Part shown: piece by piece, positions 1 to 5,007 of the stretch
Numbering within the stretch: the stretch's first letter is position 1
How the letters are laid out: every line of letters begins with the position of its first letter
Source of the DNA: Nitrospinae bacterium RIFCSPLOWO2_12_FULL_45_22
GTDB taxonomy: Bacteria; 2-12-FULL-45-22
Length of the DNA stretch: 5,007 bases
Direction: 5' to 3'
Assembly: GCA_001803565.1 (NCBI GenBank)
Contig: MHDQ01000199.1
Span: 1-5,007, forward strand
Translations under genes and position numbers: made by a program
Notes under the pieces: model-generated
What the model was told of the DNA's origin: nothing
The model's input: the letters and a program-made list of their open reading frames with translations, nothing else
The model's database searches: none

Positions 1-1476
1 AGCCATCATAAGCTCGTAACCATACACGCGGGGGAGCAGATGTTTAGGGACATACTCGTTCCAAGCTGCCTGAATTTGCGCCTCTGTTTTGCCCGCCTTC
101 TTCCACTTTTCGATCATCGTTTTATGGATAACGTCAATAACCTCTACAATGAAAGTGGCTGTGCCGGTAGCAGGGTCAAGGATCAGAACGAACGGTTCAT
201 CAGGTGCAACGCCATCTGGAATCTTGAGCTCAGGATTCCTCTTGACCATCTCACCCCATGTAACGGTCGAGGCAAGACCGTCTTCAAGCCCAAATTCGGT
301 TTTCAGCAATTCATCAACGCTTCTTACAATATAGTAGACAACGGGCTGAGGCGTGTAGAAGACCCCTCGTTCAACCTTTTTCTTCTTGTCATACTCTTTG
401 AGGAAAAGTTCATAGAAGTGGACGACCGGGTCCTCCTGCATTGTTTTCTTGCCGAAATCCCTCATGACTGCTTCAATGTGCGTGTCAGGTCTGTTCAACA
501 AATCTACAACTTCCTGTATCCCAAGTTCGTCAAAATCAATTTTACCTTTGCGACCGCCGACTTTTAAGAATGTACCGAGCATCTCTTTGAGGAAGGGGTT
601 TGTGATAGGAACCATGTCGGCCAGATTATCGGCTATAACACCGGCAGGCCGTGAGACCCGGGCAGCAAGGAGTCCATAGGCAATAGTCTGTGCATACATA
701 TCTGCAAAGTCGTCTTCATTCAGGTCATGGATAAGCGCTGTTTGAAAGGCCTTGTGCAATTTACGTAACGGACCACGCTCTGATTCTATTTTCAGAATGA
801 GATTGGCGCGTTGACGAATACTTTTGGCAAGATCGGCAAGGCGTATTGCCAGCTCTTTGGACGTGGTGATAACTTCCCTAGGGCGCAGTTCAAAGGCGTC
901 TGACCATTTCTTGCGCCACGCCCCGGCATCATCTTCATCATCAGGCCAGCGCATCTTTTCATCAAGAGTATGAACAACATGGTCAATTTTCAACTTTGTG
1001 TCATCGTCATCCCAGCCGAGAACACGCAATGTCGGGAGGTCGCCGAAAAGCCGATCAGCAGGTTCGCTGAAATGGGCGAAGGTAATCTCACGATGTTCAG
1101 ATTCGCCATAGGAGGAAATGAACAGGAGGTCGTGAAAGTTCCACACGGCCTGTTGGGATTTGTTCGCTGAGGCGCGTTTATTGATAACAAGAGAGCGCAG
1201 AATACGCCGCAAAACAACAATGGGTAACTGCTTCGGCTCAAAATTGATGAAAAAGATACCCCAAGGCTGCTTTGAGGAAAGAGGCCTGAGTTGCTTAATC
1301 TCTTTTATCTTTACAGCGGTTTTCGCGTCTATGCCGAGTTCTTCCGGCTCGTAGTCAAAGGTCAGGTCATCAAAGTCGTCTGATTCAATAGGCCAGTCAA
1401 GTTCGTCACGGAGGTATTTTACAAGCGAAGGGAATGTTCTAATTTCCCTGAGCCTCTGAACCTTTTGTGATATCAC
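1..1476 (-). CDS. Large adenine-N6 DNA methyltransferase, Eco57I/type ISP-like (N-terminal 492 residues; C-terminus beyond window edge)
   Basis: This reading frame is open for 492 codons from GTG at 1476 down to base 1, so the gene is cut by the window edge. Residues 1 to about 340 form a helical N-terminal region that includes FADMYAQTIAYGLLAAR (257-273), a segment I associate with large stand-alone restriction-modification methylases. ERGVFYTP (369-376) is the usual lead-in to the SAM-binding fold of N6-adenine methylases. DPATGTATF (434-442) is motif I, and VYGYEL (484-489) supplies the following acidic ribose-binding position. The catalytic NPPY/F motif and any target-recognition domain must lie beyond the edge. 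By family, the enzyme should transfer a methyl group from SAM to adenine N6 in a specific DNA site. GTG is chosen because GGGAGGG lies 4 bases upstream. The gene follows the PLD-helicase gene after 14 bases with no terminator, so the two are probably cotranscribed. The LLPRVYGYELMMA end most resembles type ISP enzymes. A BREX PglX-like or type IIG protein is the main alternative. Confidence 0.9.
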   Translation of the reverse strand, partial: MISQKVQRLREIRTFPSLVKYLRDELDWPIESDDFDDLTFDYEPEELGIDAKTAVKIKEIKQLRPLSSKQPWGIFFINFEPKQLPIVVLRRILRSLVINKRASANKSQQAVWNFHDLLFISSYGESEHREITFAHFSEPADRLFGDLPTLRVLGWDDDDTKLKIDHVVHTLDEKMRWPDDEDDAGAWRKKWSDAFELRPREVITTSKELAIRLADLAKSIRQRANLILKIESERGPLRKLHKAFQTALIHDLNEDDFADMYAQTIAYGLLAARVSRPAGVIADNLADMVPITNPFLKEMLGTFLKVGGRKGKIDFDELGIQEVVDLLNRPDTHIEAVMRDFGKKTMQEDPVVHFYELFLKEYDKKKKVERGVFYTPQPVVYYIVRSVDELLKTEFGLEDGLASTVTWGEMVKRNPELKIPDGVAPDEPFVLILDPATGTATFIVEVIDVIHKTMIEKWKKAGKTEAQIQAAWNEYVPKHLLPRVYGYELMMA

Positions 1477-1477
1477 A
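1466..1477. promoter_or_regulatory. Perfect 12-bp palindrome over the methylase start codon
   Basis: TGTGATATCACA is self-complementary over all 12 bases, and the GTG initiation codon (1476-1474) lies inside it. It could be an operator for a dimeric repressor, or a site through which the methylase or its regulator controls its own synthesis. As RNA it could form only a short hairpin. The palindrome is plain in the sequence; the regulatory role is inferred. It is not a CRP site, because the TGTGA and TCACA arms are 2 bases apart rather than 6. Confidence 0.35.
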
Positions 1478-1480
1478 CAA

Positions 1481-1487
1481 CCCTCCC
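1481..1487 (-). promoter_or_regulatory. Shine-Dalgarno of the methyltransferase gene
   Basis: Read on the minus strand, the sequence is GGGAGGG, followed by TTGT and then the GTG codon at 1476. This is a strong ribosome-binding site at normal spacing. It decides the GTG start, since no ATG lies nearby in frame. It sits entirely in the 14-base gap after the helicase stop codon, as expected for a cotranscribed second gene. Confidence 0.8.
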
Positions 1488-1490
1488 TTC

Positions 1491-4400
1491 TTAAGACAGT
1501 TCCATCCAGGCCTTAAGCGTGGCCTTTACGCCCACAGGTGCCTGAACTTTCTTAAAGTATGAATTTTTAATATGCTTTTCTACAATCGCCCTAATTTCAG
1601 AAAGATTTTTTTCTGGCAATGTCAGATGCCGTGGAGTATCTGGCTTACTCCGGATTAACTGAACGATTTTAGTATCATCTTCAATAATTGAAGCTTTCTC
1701 AATGTCATACAAATACCAGCGGGTAAAGCCCGCTTCATCTGTCCATTGCTCAAGCTCTGGTTTATCCTGATCTTTTGCTGCTTCTGGGCCAGGAAGGGCG
1801 TAACAGAAGAAAACTCCTTTTGCGTTTGCTTTTGGATGCTGTTTGCCGCTAAAAACCTTGCCGGGAAGCATTGAGAGCCGTTCAGTCAGATCAGGATAAT
1901 CTTTTAAAAGCTGCTGATATTCAAGATGCATTTCCTCAATTGGCGTTGTTGTACCTTCATAGGCATGACTAAATTCTTTGAGGGCATCATAATCGTCTTC
2001 AGGGCGTAGAAGCTTTTTCCCTTCAATGCCAAATGTCTTGGAAATGCGCAGAGTCTTATGGGATACCCTTGTGTAAAGACGCAGAAGAATTTCCAATTCA
2101 TCCGGAGGCAAAAAGTTCCAGTAGACGATTTTGCCTCTCAATGGGTTTAAGTCAGGATGATCGCTTAAGAGCCTATCTTCAATGCCCGGATTCATACGGC
2201 GGTCAACACGACCTATCCTCTGCATGAGACGAACCGGATTCCAATGTAAATCATAATTGATCAGCCTCATTGCATCCTGCAGGTTAAGACCTTCCGAAAG
2301 AACATCTGTGGAAATAAGAACCCTGATTTCCTCTTTTCCTTGGGCTTTAATTTCTGCACTTGAGGAGTCATTATAATACGGTGAAAACCGCTGAATGACT
2401 TCACTTCTGTCACGCTTGGAACCACTATCTATCTGCTCAACGCCCTCAATTCCTACATCTTTAATTTGTTTATGTATGTAACGTGCTGTTTCAGCAAATT
2501 CGCTGAAGATAAGAACTTTTTCTTTTTTAAGAACCGGATCGCTCTTAAGGAGTTTAATAAGAGCTTTCAGTTTATCGTCATGTTGAGGTTTGAACTTTCT
2601 TAATTCTTCGAGAAAATCACATATTTCATCAAGATCGAGATAGGTATCATCCAATATTTCCTCAACCTTATACTCTTCTCTGCTTAAATATTCAATGTCT
2701 TCCAGCATTTCTTCAGTGACGATGTCCTCATCGGCATCTTCAGGTTCCTCGTCACCGAATAACTCTTGTTGATGTTCATGCACATAGTTTATTAGTTCAG
2801 CATTTTGGAGCTTCCAGCGTTCAAGTCTCTTTTTCTCATGTTCGGTTTCACTATGTTTTGTTACCCAAGCAAGTAGTTTAAGCAATAACCGTTCACATGA
2901 GAGCCCGAAAGAATAGGCTGAACTCTCAAAACGTTTCAGAAATTGTATCCGTATAAGGCTAACAACCTGTTTTTGCCGATTTTCAACAAAGTGGTCTATT
3001 GATTCATCCGACCCCTTATAGTATGCCAGTGGATAATAGATACCGAGGACAAAAAGGGGTTTATCTTTTGCAAACGCTTTTTCAACTTTATCAAGCAGAC
3101 GGCCATATGTTTTTTTGACTGAATAATCAACAACACGCGGGGCTTCACGGGAGGGGAAGATTGTAGCACTTCCTCCTTGTTGTATTTGGCTCTGTTTTGC
3201 ATATGCCCTGCTTCTCTGGACAACCAGATGACGAAATAGAGTATCTGTCATAAGGGCACGCTCGGCTTCAGCCATATTAAGCTCAAGAAGAAGTTGATCG
3301 CTTGGCGTAATTGTTTTCTTAAGCTCATTTTCCATACGGATAAAATGACCTCTAAGTGAATGTATCCCAAGAGTTGATTTAAAATAATCTTCACGTTGGC
3401 GAGTAAAAAGCTCAACCATATGGCGGAAGTCATCAAGTCGGTTGTTAATAGGTGTTGCGGTTATCAAATAAAGTTCTTTTGAACCTTTGAGTCCCTCTAT
3501 AATGTCGAAAAGAAGACGATACCGTGATGGTCTTCGTTCACCGATTCCTTTAATACCGGGGTTGCGGAAGTGATGGGCTTCATCAATGATGATTGCGTCA
3601 GCCATTTCCTTGATTCGCTCAAACCGATAAGGGAAATCACCACCTCTGCCAAGGTCTGTATGGTTGAAGATAACGAGATTACTAAAATCACCACCTTTAA
3701 CACCACCTATATGACGTAGATAGCGTTTTAGATCTCTTTCCCAAACATCTGCTCGTGTTGATTTTGGAACGAATAAGGCAACCCTTTTCCTGTCATGCAT
3801 TACAAGACGCTCTATGAGCATCAACCCTACAAATGTCTTGCCTAATCCGACACCATCACAAATAAATGCGCCACCATGCTGTCGGGCGATTTTAATTAAT
3901 GCCTGATAGCCCTCTTTTTGATATTGATCCAAAATTGGATACATTTTCGATTCGGTTTGTTCCCATTGTGACGGGGTCATTTCATAGCTGCGGAAATATT
4001 CCTGCAGCGCCTTTGCATAGACTTCAAAGGGAGAATATTCTCGGGTATGCCGTTCAATAACCTTCAGAATGTCCTCACTTATTGGCTCTGCCTCATTCCA
4101 ATGGCGCTCATACCATTCCTGAAGTAACTCTACTTCGCGTCTAATTTGAATATTTAATTCAACATTTTCCGTAAGTCCCGGATAGGTAAAGTTACTCGAA
4201 CCCACGAGAGCTGTAGAGCCGATTACTGCATGTTTGGCATGAGTTATATAAGCCTTGGCGTGAAATTTATCTTTTGTATAAATGCGGCATTCAATCTGGC
4301 TTTTTCTGATAGCATCAACGATAGCTGGTACACCTGTGAGAAAATCGTTTTTCTCTTTCTCTCTTTCAATGCTGGCATCGAGAATTTGCCTGGCTGTTTC

Positions 4401-4649
4401 AATTCCTGCGAGGAGTGCTTTCTTAGTTCGCTTTGATACCTCGTCTCCCATGAGAATTCTAATTTTTTCCAATTTCTGCCACTGACCATCAAGGGCTAAG
4501 AGAGCACCGATTTCAAAGTAACCAGTAGCAATATCAAACTTGTGAGCGAGATCTGTCCACTCATGAAGGTAATTTCTCACCTTCCAATCCTGATCGCTGT
4601 TATCAACGATAAAGAGGTCGGAACCTTGTAGTTTTGACTCTTTTTTCAT
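1491..4649 (-). CDS. PLD-nuclease / SNF2-family helicase fusion, restriction-like DNA translocase
   Basis: A 1052-residue cytoplasmic protein with no signal peptide or membrane segment. Residues 1 to about 190 form a phospholipase-D-type nuclease domain: ATGYFEIGAL (41-50), then FHAKAYI with H130 and K132, then GSSNFT with S152 and N153. This is one HxK...GSxN half-site, as in PLD restriction nucleases such as BfiI, which dimerise to complete the active site. A complete SF2/SNF2 motor follows: a Q-like segment near 241-250, Walker A DGVGLGKT (265-272), Ia LFVPKS (292-297), Walker B DEAHH (356-360), motif III TATPINN (397-403), IV VLIFSEF (712-718), V STDVLSEGLNLQ (780-791) and VI QRIGRVDRR (810-818). 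A strongly acidic stretch (631-683) lies between the lobes. Residues beyond about 850 form a C-terminal domain I cannot name. All motor residues look intact, so ATP-driven movement on DNA coupled to cleavage is expected. The adjacent methylase gene points to restriction. DISARM DrmD is the nearest named alternative, but as I know it that helicase lacks a PLD domain. Confidence 0.93.
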   Translation of the reverse strand: MKKESKLQGSDLFIVDNSDQDWKVRNYLHEWTDLAHKFDIATGYFEIGALLALDGQWQKLEKIRILMGDEVSKRTKKALLAGIETARQILDASIEREKEKNDFLTGVPAIVDAIRKSQIECRIYTKDKFHAKAYITHAKHAVIGSTALVGSSNFTYPGLTENVELNIQIRREVELLQEWYERHWNEAEPISEDILKVIERHTREYSPFEVYAKALQEYFRSYEMTPSQWEQTESKMYPILDQYQKEGYQALIKIARQHGGAFICDGVGLGKTFVGLMLIERLVMHDRKRVALFVPKSTRADVWERDLKRYLRHIGGVKGGDFSNLVIFNHTDLGRGGDFPYRFERIKEMADAIIIDEAHHFRNPGIKGIGERRPSRYRLLFDIIEGLKGSKELYLITATPINNRLDDFRHMVELFTRQREDYFKSTLGIHSLRGHFIRMENELKKTITPSDQLLLELNMAEAERALMTDTLFRHLVVQRSRAYAKQSQIQQGGSATIFPSREAPRVVDYSVKKTYGRLLDKVEKAFAKDKPLFVLGIYYPLAYYKGSDESIDHFVENRQKQVVSLIRIQFLKRFESSAYSFGLSCERLLLKLLAWVTKHSETEHEKKRLERWKLQNAELINYVHEHQQELFGDEEPEDADEDIVTEEMLEDIEYLSREEYKVEEILDDTYLDLDEICDFLEELRKFKPQHDDKLKALIKLLKSDPVLKKEKVLIFSEFAETARYIHKQIKDVGIEGVEQIDSGSKRDRSEVIQRFSPYYNDSSSAEIKAQGKEEIRVLISTDVLSEGLNLQDAMRLINYDLHWNPVRLMQRIGRVDRRMNPGIEDRLLSDHPDLNPLRGKIVYWNFLPPDELEILLRLYTRVSHKTLRISKTFGIEGKKLLRPEDDYDALKEFSHAYEGTTTPIEEMHLEYQQLLKDYPDLTERLSMLPGKVFSGKQHPKANAKGVFFCYALPGPEAAKDQDKPELEQWTDEAGFTRWYLYDIEKASIIEDDTKIVQLIRSKPDTPRHLTLPEKNLSEIRAIVEKHIKNSYFKKVQAPVGVKATLKAWMELS

Positions 4650-4823
4650 AAGGCTTTTCTCTCACCTTCAAGTTTATTCTTAAAAGACAGCAAGGATATT
4701 TCCGTTCATATCGGTAAGCGTTATATCTGGTCTAATGCTTTTCTTACAGTCAGAAATCTTTTGATGTTCTGAACATAAGACATCCTCCTGCTGATAGAGC
4801 AACGTATCCCCCGCTTCCAGCAT
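4646..4823 (-). pseudogene. Short frameshifted relic resembling a PD-(D/E)xK nuclease core, overlapping the helicase start
   Basis: From ATG at 4823 a 47-codon frame runs to TAA at 4682-4680. Its end, IRPDITLTDMNGNILAVF (30-47), reads like the core of HSDR_N/PD-(D/E)xK nucleases, where an RPD aspartate is followed by a turn and a beta strand leading into ExK. Here the strand stops just where ExK would come. If one T of the TTTT run at 4685-4682 is dropped, the frame continues as KNKLEGERKAL and stops at TGA 4648-4646, overlapping the helicase ATG by four bases (ATGA). That is a typical operon junction. The catalytic glutamate would still be a lysine. Upstream the frame is closed by TGA at 4841-4839, next to a palindromic repeat. 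I infer the decayed tail of a gene that once preceded the helicase; no close family is recognised. A chance frame, or a short expressed peptide, remains possible. Confidence 0.35.
4661..4668 (-). promoter_or_regulatory. Probable Shine-Dalgarno of the PLD-helicase gene, long spacing
   Basis: Read on the minus strand, AAGGTGAG ends 11 bases before the ATG at 4649. It matches the GGTGA part of the anti-Shine-Dalgarno complement, at a spacing longer than usual. No better site lies closer. The weak site would fit translation partly coupled to an upstream frame that once ended in the ATGA overlap at 4649-4646. Confidence 0.45.
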
Positions 4824-4892: not shown

Positions 4893-4911
4893 CCCCGTAT
4901 CAAGTACGGGG
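4893..4911. repeat. GC-rich palindrome, 7-bp stem with 5-base loop
   Basis: CCCCGTA (4893-4899) and TACGGGG (4905-4911) are perfect inverted arms around TCAAG. An outer CTTG (4887-4890) and CAAG (4921-4924) also pair, and GCAG/CTGC (4911-4914 and 4918-4921) could make a smaller alternative hairpin. Such short palindromes are typical of multicopy intergenic elements. Only one copy is in this window, so repetition in the genome is inferred. Confidence 0.55.
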
Positions 4912-5007
4912 CAGGCTCTGCAAGTATTAAACAGGGATCGGTATCCGTTGCTTCGTTGATTTTAGACATTTTATCTGCACACCTTATTTTTGTCCTTTTG
5001 GTTTTAA

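Follow-up and report, generated by a model that had tools for sequence, protein, structure and literature searches.

A PLD-SNF2 nuclease-motor with repeatedly replaced methylase partners: probably a two-subunit variant of ATP-dependent restriction-modification

A PLD-SNF2 fusion gene directly followed by the gene of a large N6-adenine methylase raises the question whether both products form a single restriction machine and, if so, of which kind. Such a pair occupies the window, i.e., the stretch of 5007 bases analysed here, which represents one entire contig out of the 321 in a metagenome-type assembly (85 % complete) of Nitrospinae bacterium RIFCSPLOWO2_12_FULL_45_22. Both genes are located on the minus strand (Table 1): (i) gene A is a complete open reading frame starting with ATG, and (ii) gene B starts with GTG and stays open until it exits the contig at base 1, i.e., it is shortened by the contig end and not by a stop codon. 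The 14 bases between them (GAAGGGAGGGTTGT) contain a Shine-Dalgarno motif upstream of gene B; in most relatives, the two genes are spaced by gaps of 0–80 bases or overlap shortly. A sequence-only reading of this DNA had described a complete PLD-SNF2 fusion followed after 14 bases by an N6-adenine methylase on the same strand, which is confirmed by the open reading frames, the Pfam domains and 68 orthologous loci.

Table 1 Features of the gene pair in the window (residue numbers refer to the respective gene product)
Feature	Position	Strand	Evidence
Gene A, PLD(HKD)-SNF2 nuclease-translocase, 1052 aa, complete	1491..4649	-	Pfam; orthologues 50–84 % identical in 68 loci
PLD/HKD nuclease domain, gene A residues 37–184	4098..4541	-	PLDc_2, 1.9e-9
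HxK motif, gene A H130-A-K132	4254..4262	-	Invariant in 33/33
GSSN motif, gene A residues 150–153; HxK...SN...E PLD signature complete with E164	4191..4202	-	Invariant in 33/33
Motor motif I (Walker A) GVGLGKT, gene A residues 266–272	3834..3854	-	Invariant
Motor motif II DEAHH, gene A residues 356–360	3570..3584	-	D356, E357 and H359 invariant; A358 in 32/33
Helicase_C lobe, gene A residues 693–817, ending in motif VI QRIGRVDRR	2199..2573	-	1.3e-18; invariant residues
Intergenic gap, 14 bases, Shine-Dalgarno GGGAGGG at 1481–1487	1477..1490	-	Sequence
Gene B, N6-adenine methylase/specificity subunit, first 492 aa	1..1476	-	Pfam; ISP type via L028 (85 %) and L035 (70 %)
Gene B N-terminal domain of ~195 aa, putative docking domain	892..1476	-	Common to three partner types; motor-restricted occurrence
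Methylase motif I DPATGTATF, gene B residues 434–442	151..177	-	Sequence; conserved alignment block

Two further elements were observed in the remainder of the window. A short open stretch at 4683–4823 (minus strand) ends in RPDITLTDMNGNILAVF; NKLEGERKAL follows in a different frame immediately upstream of gene A. The stretch resembles the degraded beginning of a PD-(D/E)XK domain of a restriction enzyme; it has no match in Pfam and is absent from every relative examined. A palindromic repeat at 4893–4917 (minus strand; AGCCTGCCCCGTACTTGATACGGGG), of which three more near copies are present in the genome (contig C17 twice, contig C140), is perhaps a REP-like element.

Gene A cannot be considered a chance open reading frame, since orthologous loci from many phyla were retrieved by genome-contig scan, their best segments sharing the identities given in Table 1. 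In addition to the domains listed there, Pfam recognized SNF2-rel_dom at residues 243–312. The PLD residues H130, K132, S151, S152, N153, N162 and E164 as well as the motor residues GKT (270–272), DE (356–357), TATP (397–400) and QRxGRxDR (810–817) are invariant in all 33 orthologues compared, motor motifs I, II, III and VI deviating only in the alanine of DEAH in a single orthologue; by these signatures, gene A appears to encode a functional enzyme. A structure search places its motor among the Swi2/Snf2 ATPases, RapA included, the PLD catalytic loop (residues 127–171) being predicted with low confidence, and no recognized target-recognition domain was found in gene A. The best PADLOC model, C3a139 (HKD+Snf2), which comes without a stated cut-off, is matched at 1.3e-58, proteins of a sister clade matching it at 1e-126 to 1e-134. 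DISARM DrmD, DpdE and the phospholipD_antiphage equivalog were rejected as identities of gene A, because the NCBIfam scores are far under the curated cut-offs (DrmD models: 128.2 and 79.5 bits, cut-offs 610 and 950).

The two genes travel together: a large methylase adjoins the motor in 56 of the 59 loci (out of 68) that extend at least 800 bases downstream, a number composed of 52 loci from a gap-limited count and of L036, L052, L073 and L081, where the gene overlap exceeded the cut-off and the methylase was confirmed by domain search. The loci devoid of a following methylase are the gene fragments L085 and L089 as well as L026 (13114–16129), which harbours an intact motor gene (96 % identity to L025) and an L041-type spacer, but no methylase within 3 kb; this region may have lost its methylase, decayed or been misassembled. 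The same pair is present in eight loci on viral contigs.

About 20 loci contain extra sequence between the motor and methylase genes. Passengers in several of these gaps are HTH/ImmA-like, MqsA-like with SecB-like, ORF6N, NYN or DUF1016/YhcG; toxin-antitoxin-like ones were observed in L060 (7141–8587), L063 (13210–14689), L072 (13233–14202), L078 (13295–13933) and L077 (9152–9730). The motor-methylase gap is a recurrent insertion place for such passengers.

Pfam detects N6_Mtase at residues 348–389 of gene B (9e-7), and the available stretch reaches motif I, ending before NPPY. Insight into the missing part is provided by full-length relatives, in particular by L035, the identity of which was determined over the 492 residues of the window. 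Its methylase (1141 aa) consists of an N-terminal domain up to residue ~195, a helical region, an N6-MTase with NPPY and Type_ISP_C (1.4e-67); thus, NPPY and the target-recognition domain, both predicted to lie beyond base 1, are found in full-length relatives. In L035, L025, L070 and L052, Type_ISP_C (1e-66 to 1e-80) follows the γ-class N6-MTase, the window ending before that region. Compared with the PDB, a profile of full-length methylases matches DrdV (5e-74), LlaBIII (1e-65) and LlaGI (3e-63). The L035 methylase, as modelled by AlphaFold (pLDDT 82), could be superimposed on residues 714–1577 of LlaBIII (Z 36.0, rmsd 5.4, 789 aligned) and 144–1029 of DrdV (Z 34.8, rmsd 5.8, 783 aligned). 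Since both alignments begin near residue 200 of L035, the N-terminal domain occupies the place taken by the nuclease in DrdV and by nuclease and motor in LlaBIII. The split ISP-like layout with the PLD nuclease on the motor, as put forward by the sequence-only reading, is supported.

The assumption of an ISP-like partner holds for close relatives (L028, L035), but not for the family as a whole: 12 loci possess non-ISP methylases carrying the same N-terminal domain, which are either PglX-like, containing DUF7008, or Eco57I-like, ending in M_Eco57I_C or TaqI_C. On the gene A tree, constructed by a quick method without bootstrap, the type of methylase switches 11 times, and well-supported branches force at least 8 of these switches. 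Already L022, the closest complete relative of the window, has a PglX-like partner, and the motors of L025 and L041 are 96.9 % identical, their methylases aligning only in the N-terminal domain (56 %). The sequence of this domain tracks the methylase type and not the motor (between the window and L022, the motors are 75 % and the domains 32 % identical). Therefore, the whole methylase gene is probably the unit exchanged. This divergence speaks somewhat against docking via the domain, since such an interface would have to accommodate considerable variation.

The N-terminal domain is common to the ISP-like, PglX-like and Eco57I-like partners, non-ISP and ISP methylases sharing 28–36 % identity over the N-terminal 200 residues and 9–27 % elsewhere. 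Six of 288 Verrucomicrobiota genomes harbour a gene A orthologue (1545 bits or more), and exactly these six also harbour the domain, at a distance of at most ~2.2 kb, as compared to none of the 282 genomes without the motor (Fisher p 1.3e-12). In a second phylum, the domain adjoins the motor in both orthologues found, one orphan fragment of 87 residues occurring in addition. Across 585 genomes it thus occurs, apart from this fragment, only together with a gene A-type motor. The domain is never present with other PLD-SNF2 proteins of the same genomes (at most 343 bits), and it was found in all eight viral-contig loci whose motor gene is intact and whose downstream region is available. Pfam and PDB offer no significant relative of this previously unannotated domain, that part of the model being barely sampled in the VIA-align structure search. 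The domain is the actual signature of the system. Carrying it appears to be the condition for partnership with the motor, and its distribution suggests that it docks interchangeable methylase/specificity subunits onto one cutting motor. In L076 (14157–15080), an additional, separate protein of 308 aa with a copy of the domain is encoded between the two genes, next to a DUF1016/YhcG nuclease.

In an unlikely alternative, the methylase alone represents a Type IIG/IIL-like enzyme with the N-terminal domain as its nuclease (as in DrdV), the PLD-SNF2 protein being auxiliary or a separate defence gene. The methylase/specificity part indeed matches DrdV and the PADLOC model REase_MTase_IIG (4e-220), and the predicted helix-strand-strand-strand-helix-strand order of the front domain resembles a PD-(D/E)XK core. 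However, its conserved polar residues (D24, E46, R64, Q70, R90, R101, H135, D180) do not form a conserved D...(D/E)xK signature in the domain alignment, the would-be third strand reading WGIFFVxF; moreover, an intact front domain was not found away from the PLD-SNF2 gene, and a complete nuclease is already encoded in the adjoining gene A.

A counterpart of the domain may exist in sister systems of the C3a139 clade. Most of the DUF4391 loci sampled (Verrucomicrobiota) have an adjoining PLD-SNF2 gene, which suggests DUF4391 as the adaptor there. The front domain itself was rejected as DUF4391, the profile comparison not being significant (prob 0.4, p 0.17); by eye, both share a similar strand-helix-strand-strand order. 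A second pair, consisting of a PLD-SNF2 protein of the C3a139 clade and an Eco57I-type methylase with a DUF4391-like region at residues 116–223, was observed in the same metagenome-assembled genome (L093, contig C183, 3–6742), and a Lactococcus conjugative plasmid (L178, 6989–13055) encodes PLD-SNF2, a stand-alone DUF4391 and then a site-specific methyltransferase. The C3a139 loci resemble the present pair in that their PLD-SNF2 proteins (about 25–34 % identical) adjoin N6-methylases, with DUF4391 alone or fronting the methylase; however, they form a separate clade, their scores staying below 360 bits, whereas complete gene A-type proteins reach at least 1266.

Among known systems, the Type ISP enzymes LlaGI and LlaBIII likewise combine a methylase and Type_ISP_C with an SF2 motor and a nuclease in one functional unit. 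They are, however, single chains with an Mrr nuclease (PMC4666363), whereas two separate genes are present here in the window as well as in the 56 loci, the nuclease is of the PLD family and resides on the motor protein, and the methylase opens with an unrelated domain of ~195 aa. Since both defining features, single chain and Mrr nuclease, were examined and are lacking, the pair is predicted to work like Type ISP without being a member. DrdV and the Type IIL/IIG enzymes are as near to the methylase-specificity part as ISP, but DrdV aligns only from its residue ~144 and has no motor, and no nuclease signature was seen in the alignment of the front domain here. SauUSI likewise joins a PLD nuclease at its N-terminus to an SF2 motor and cleaves after ATP-driven translocation (PMC7913695); in contrast, it forms a single chain, reads methylated DNA by an SRA-type domain and lacks a methylase partner. 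NgoAVII and CglI employ a PLD nuclease and an SF2 ATPase within restriction-modification systems, with a B3 domain for recognition joined to the PLD nuclease there and with a separate ATPase (R2H2; PMC7913695). Class 1 DISARM shares SNF2 helicase, methylase and the use of a PLD nuclease, but here PLD is part of the motor. Moreover, among 133 neighbours in relatives (Pfam and PADLOC), drmA and drmB are not among the top families listed, the window itself having no flank, and the 25 commonest families listed contain no conspicuous DISARM or BREX core gene. The DrmD scores agree with the earlier distinction from DISARM. Within the material covered, neither finding named as refuting the sequence-only reading was made, be it such a gene set next door or homologues of the two genes that go separate ways. 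In the literature covered, mostly openly accessible papers, neighbouring systems are described, but not the present pair. Judged by its predicted parts (nuclease, motor and a linked, presumably cognate methylase with target recognition), the pair corresponds to ATP-dependent restriction-modification in general and is, on this reading, a real, widespread and probably undescribed variant of it.

Taken as a whole, we assign a probability of about 0.7 to the reading that gene A and gene B constitute a two-subunit ATP-dependent restriction-modification system, with an exchangeable gene B product docked to that of gene A; that motor and methylase act together against foreign DNA is very probable. 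The mechanism proposed combines the behaviour of ISP enzymes, which modify a single strand at asymmetric sites by methylation, translocate and cleave upon convergence (PMC4666363), with that of SauUSI, a PLD-SF2 fusion which translocates and shreds DNA as a PLD-held dimer (PMC7913695). Gene B would methylate adenine in a target of the host DNA, on one strand, and would provide the sole target recognition via its Type ISP/DrdV-like specificity domain. Gene A would dock on gene B, most likely via the N-terminal ~195 residues of the latter. Binding of gene B to an unmethylated target would attract gene A or switch it on by way of the docking domain, and the activated SNF2 motor would travel along double-stranded DNA. 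Upon collision or stalling of motors, the PLD nuclease, which probably pairs with a second copy as other PLD nucleases do, would cut both strands. Wholesale exchange of gene B against an unrelated methylase with the same front domain would then confer new specificity, the motor being kept. The further-reaching view of a plug-in restriction machine, in which one PLD-SNF2 motor accepts whole subunits from at least three methylase families (ISP/DrdV-like, PglX-like, Eco57I-like) via an undescribed docking domain and specificity shifts by replacement of whole methylases and not by recognition-domain swaps, is held at even odds.

One may alternatively envisage a modification-dependent abortive-infection or regulatory module, with the motor sensing or remodelling modified DNA and the PLD domain cutting host DNA or another target. 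RapA, an SNF2 protein acting on RNA polymerase, is among the top structural matches of the gene A motor, and suicide action was proposed for other PLD-helicase proteins (PMC10853773); nevertheless, invariant PLD residues and an adjoining specificity-bearing methylase represent the usual make-up of restriction-modification, rendering such a module quite improbable. Membership in the BREX-related (BR) Type-2 systems, the helicases of which also begin with an HKD nuclease fused to Swi2/Snf2 and work with an N6-MTase (PMC12839542), is rejected as highly improbable, since neither the DUF499 ATPase nor DUF3780, by which these systems are defined, occurs in the host genome (85 % complete); of 27 pair-bearing genomes, 18 have no DUF499 and 22 no DUF3780. 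Wherever DUF3780 passes its cut-off, a DUF499 gene is located at most ~3 kb away within a separate cluster, and the methylases scanned contain no DUF1156.

If the two-subunit restriction-modification system is real, it would allow the modularity of ATP-dependent restriction to be tested on a natural example, with one motor, many methylases and one interface, and would present the ISP/DrdV recognition module separated from its usual nuclease and motor. DUF4391, an unexplained domain recurring beside PLD-SNF2 genes, would gain a suggested role as adaptor counterpart in the sister systems. Likewise, methylases filed as stand-alone Type IIG or PglX may represent, in such loci, the specificity half of a two-part system.
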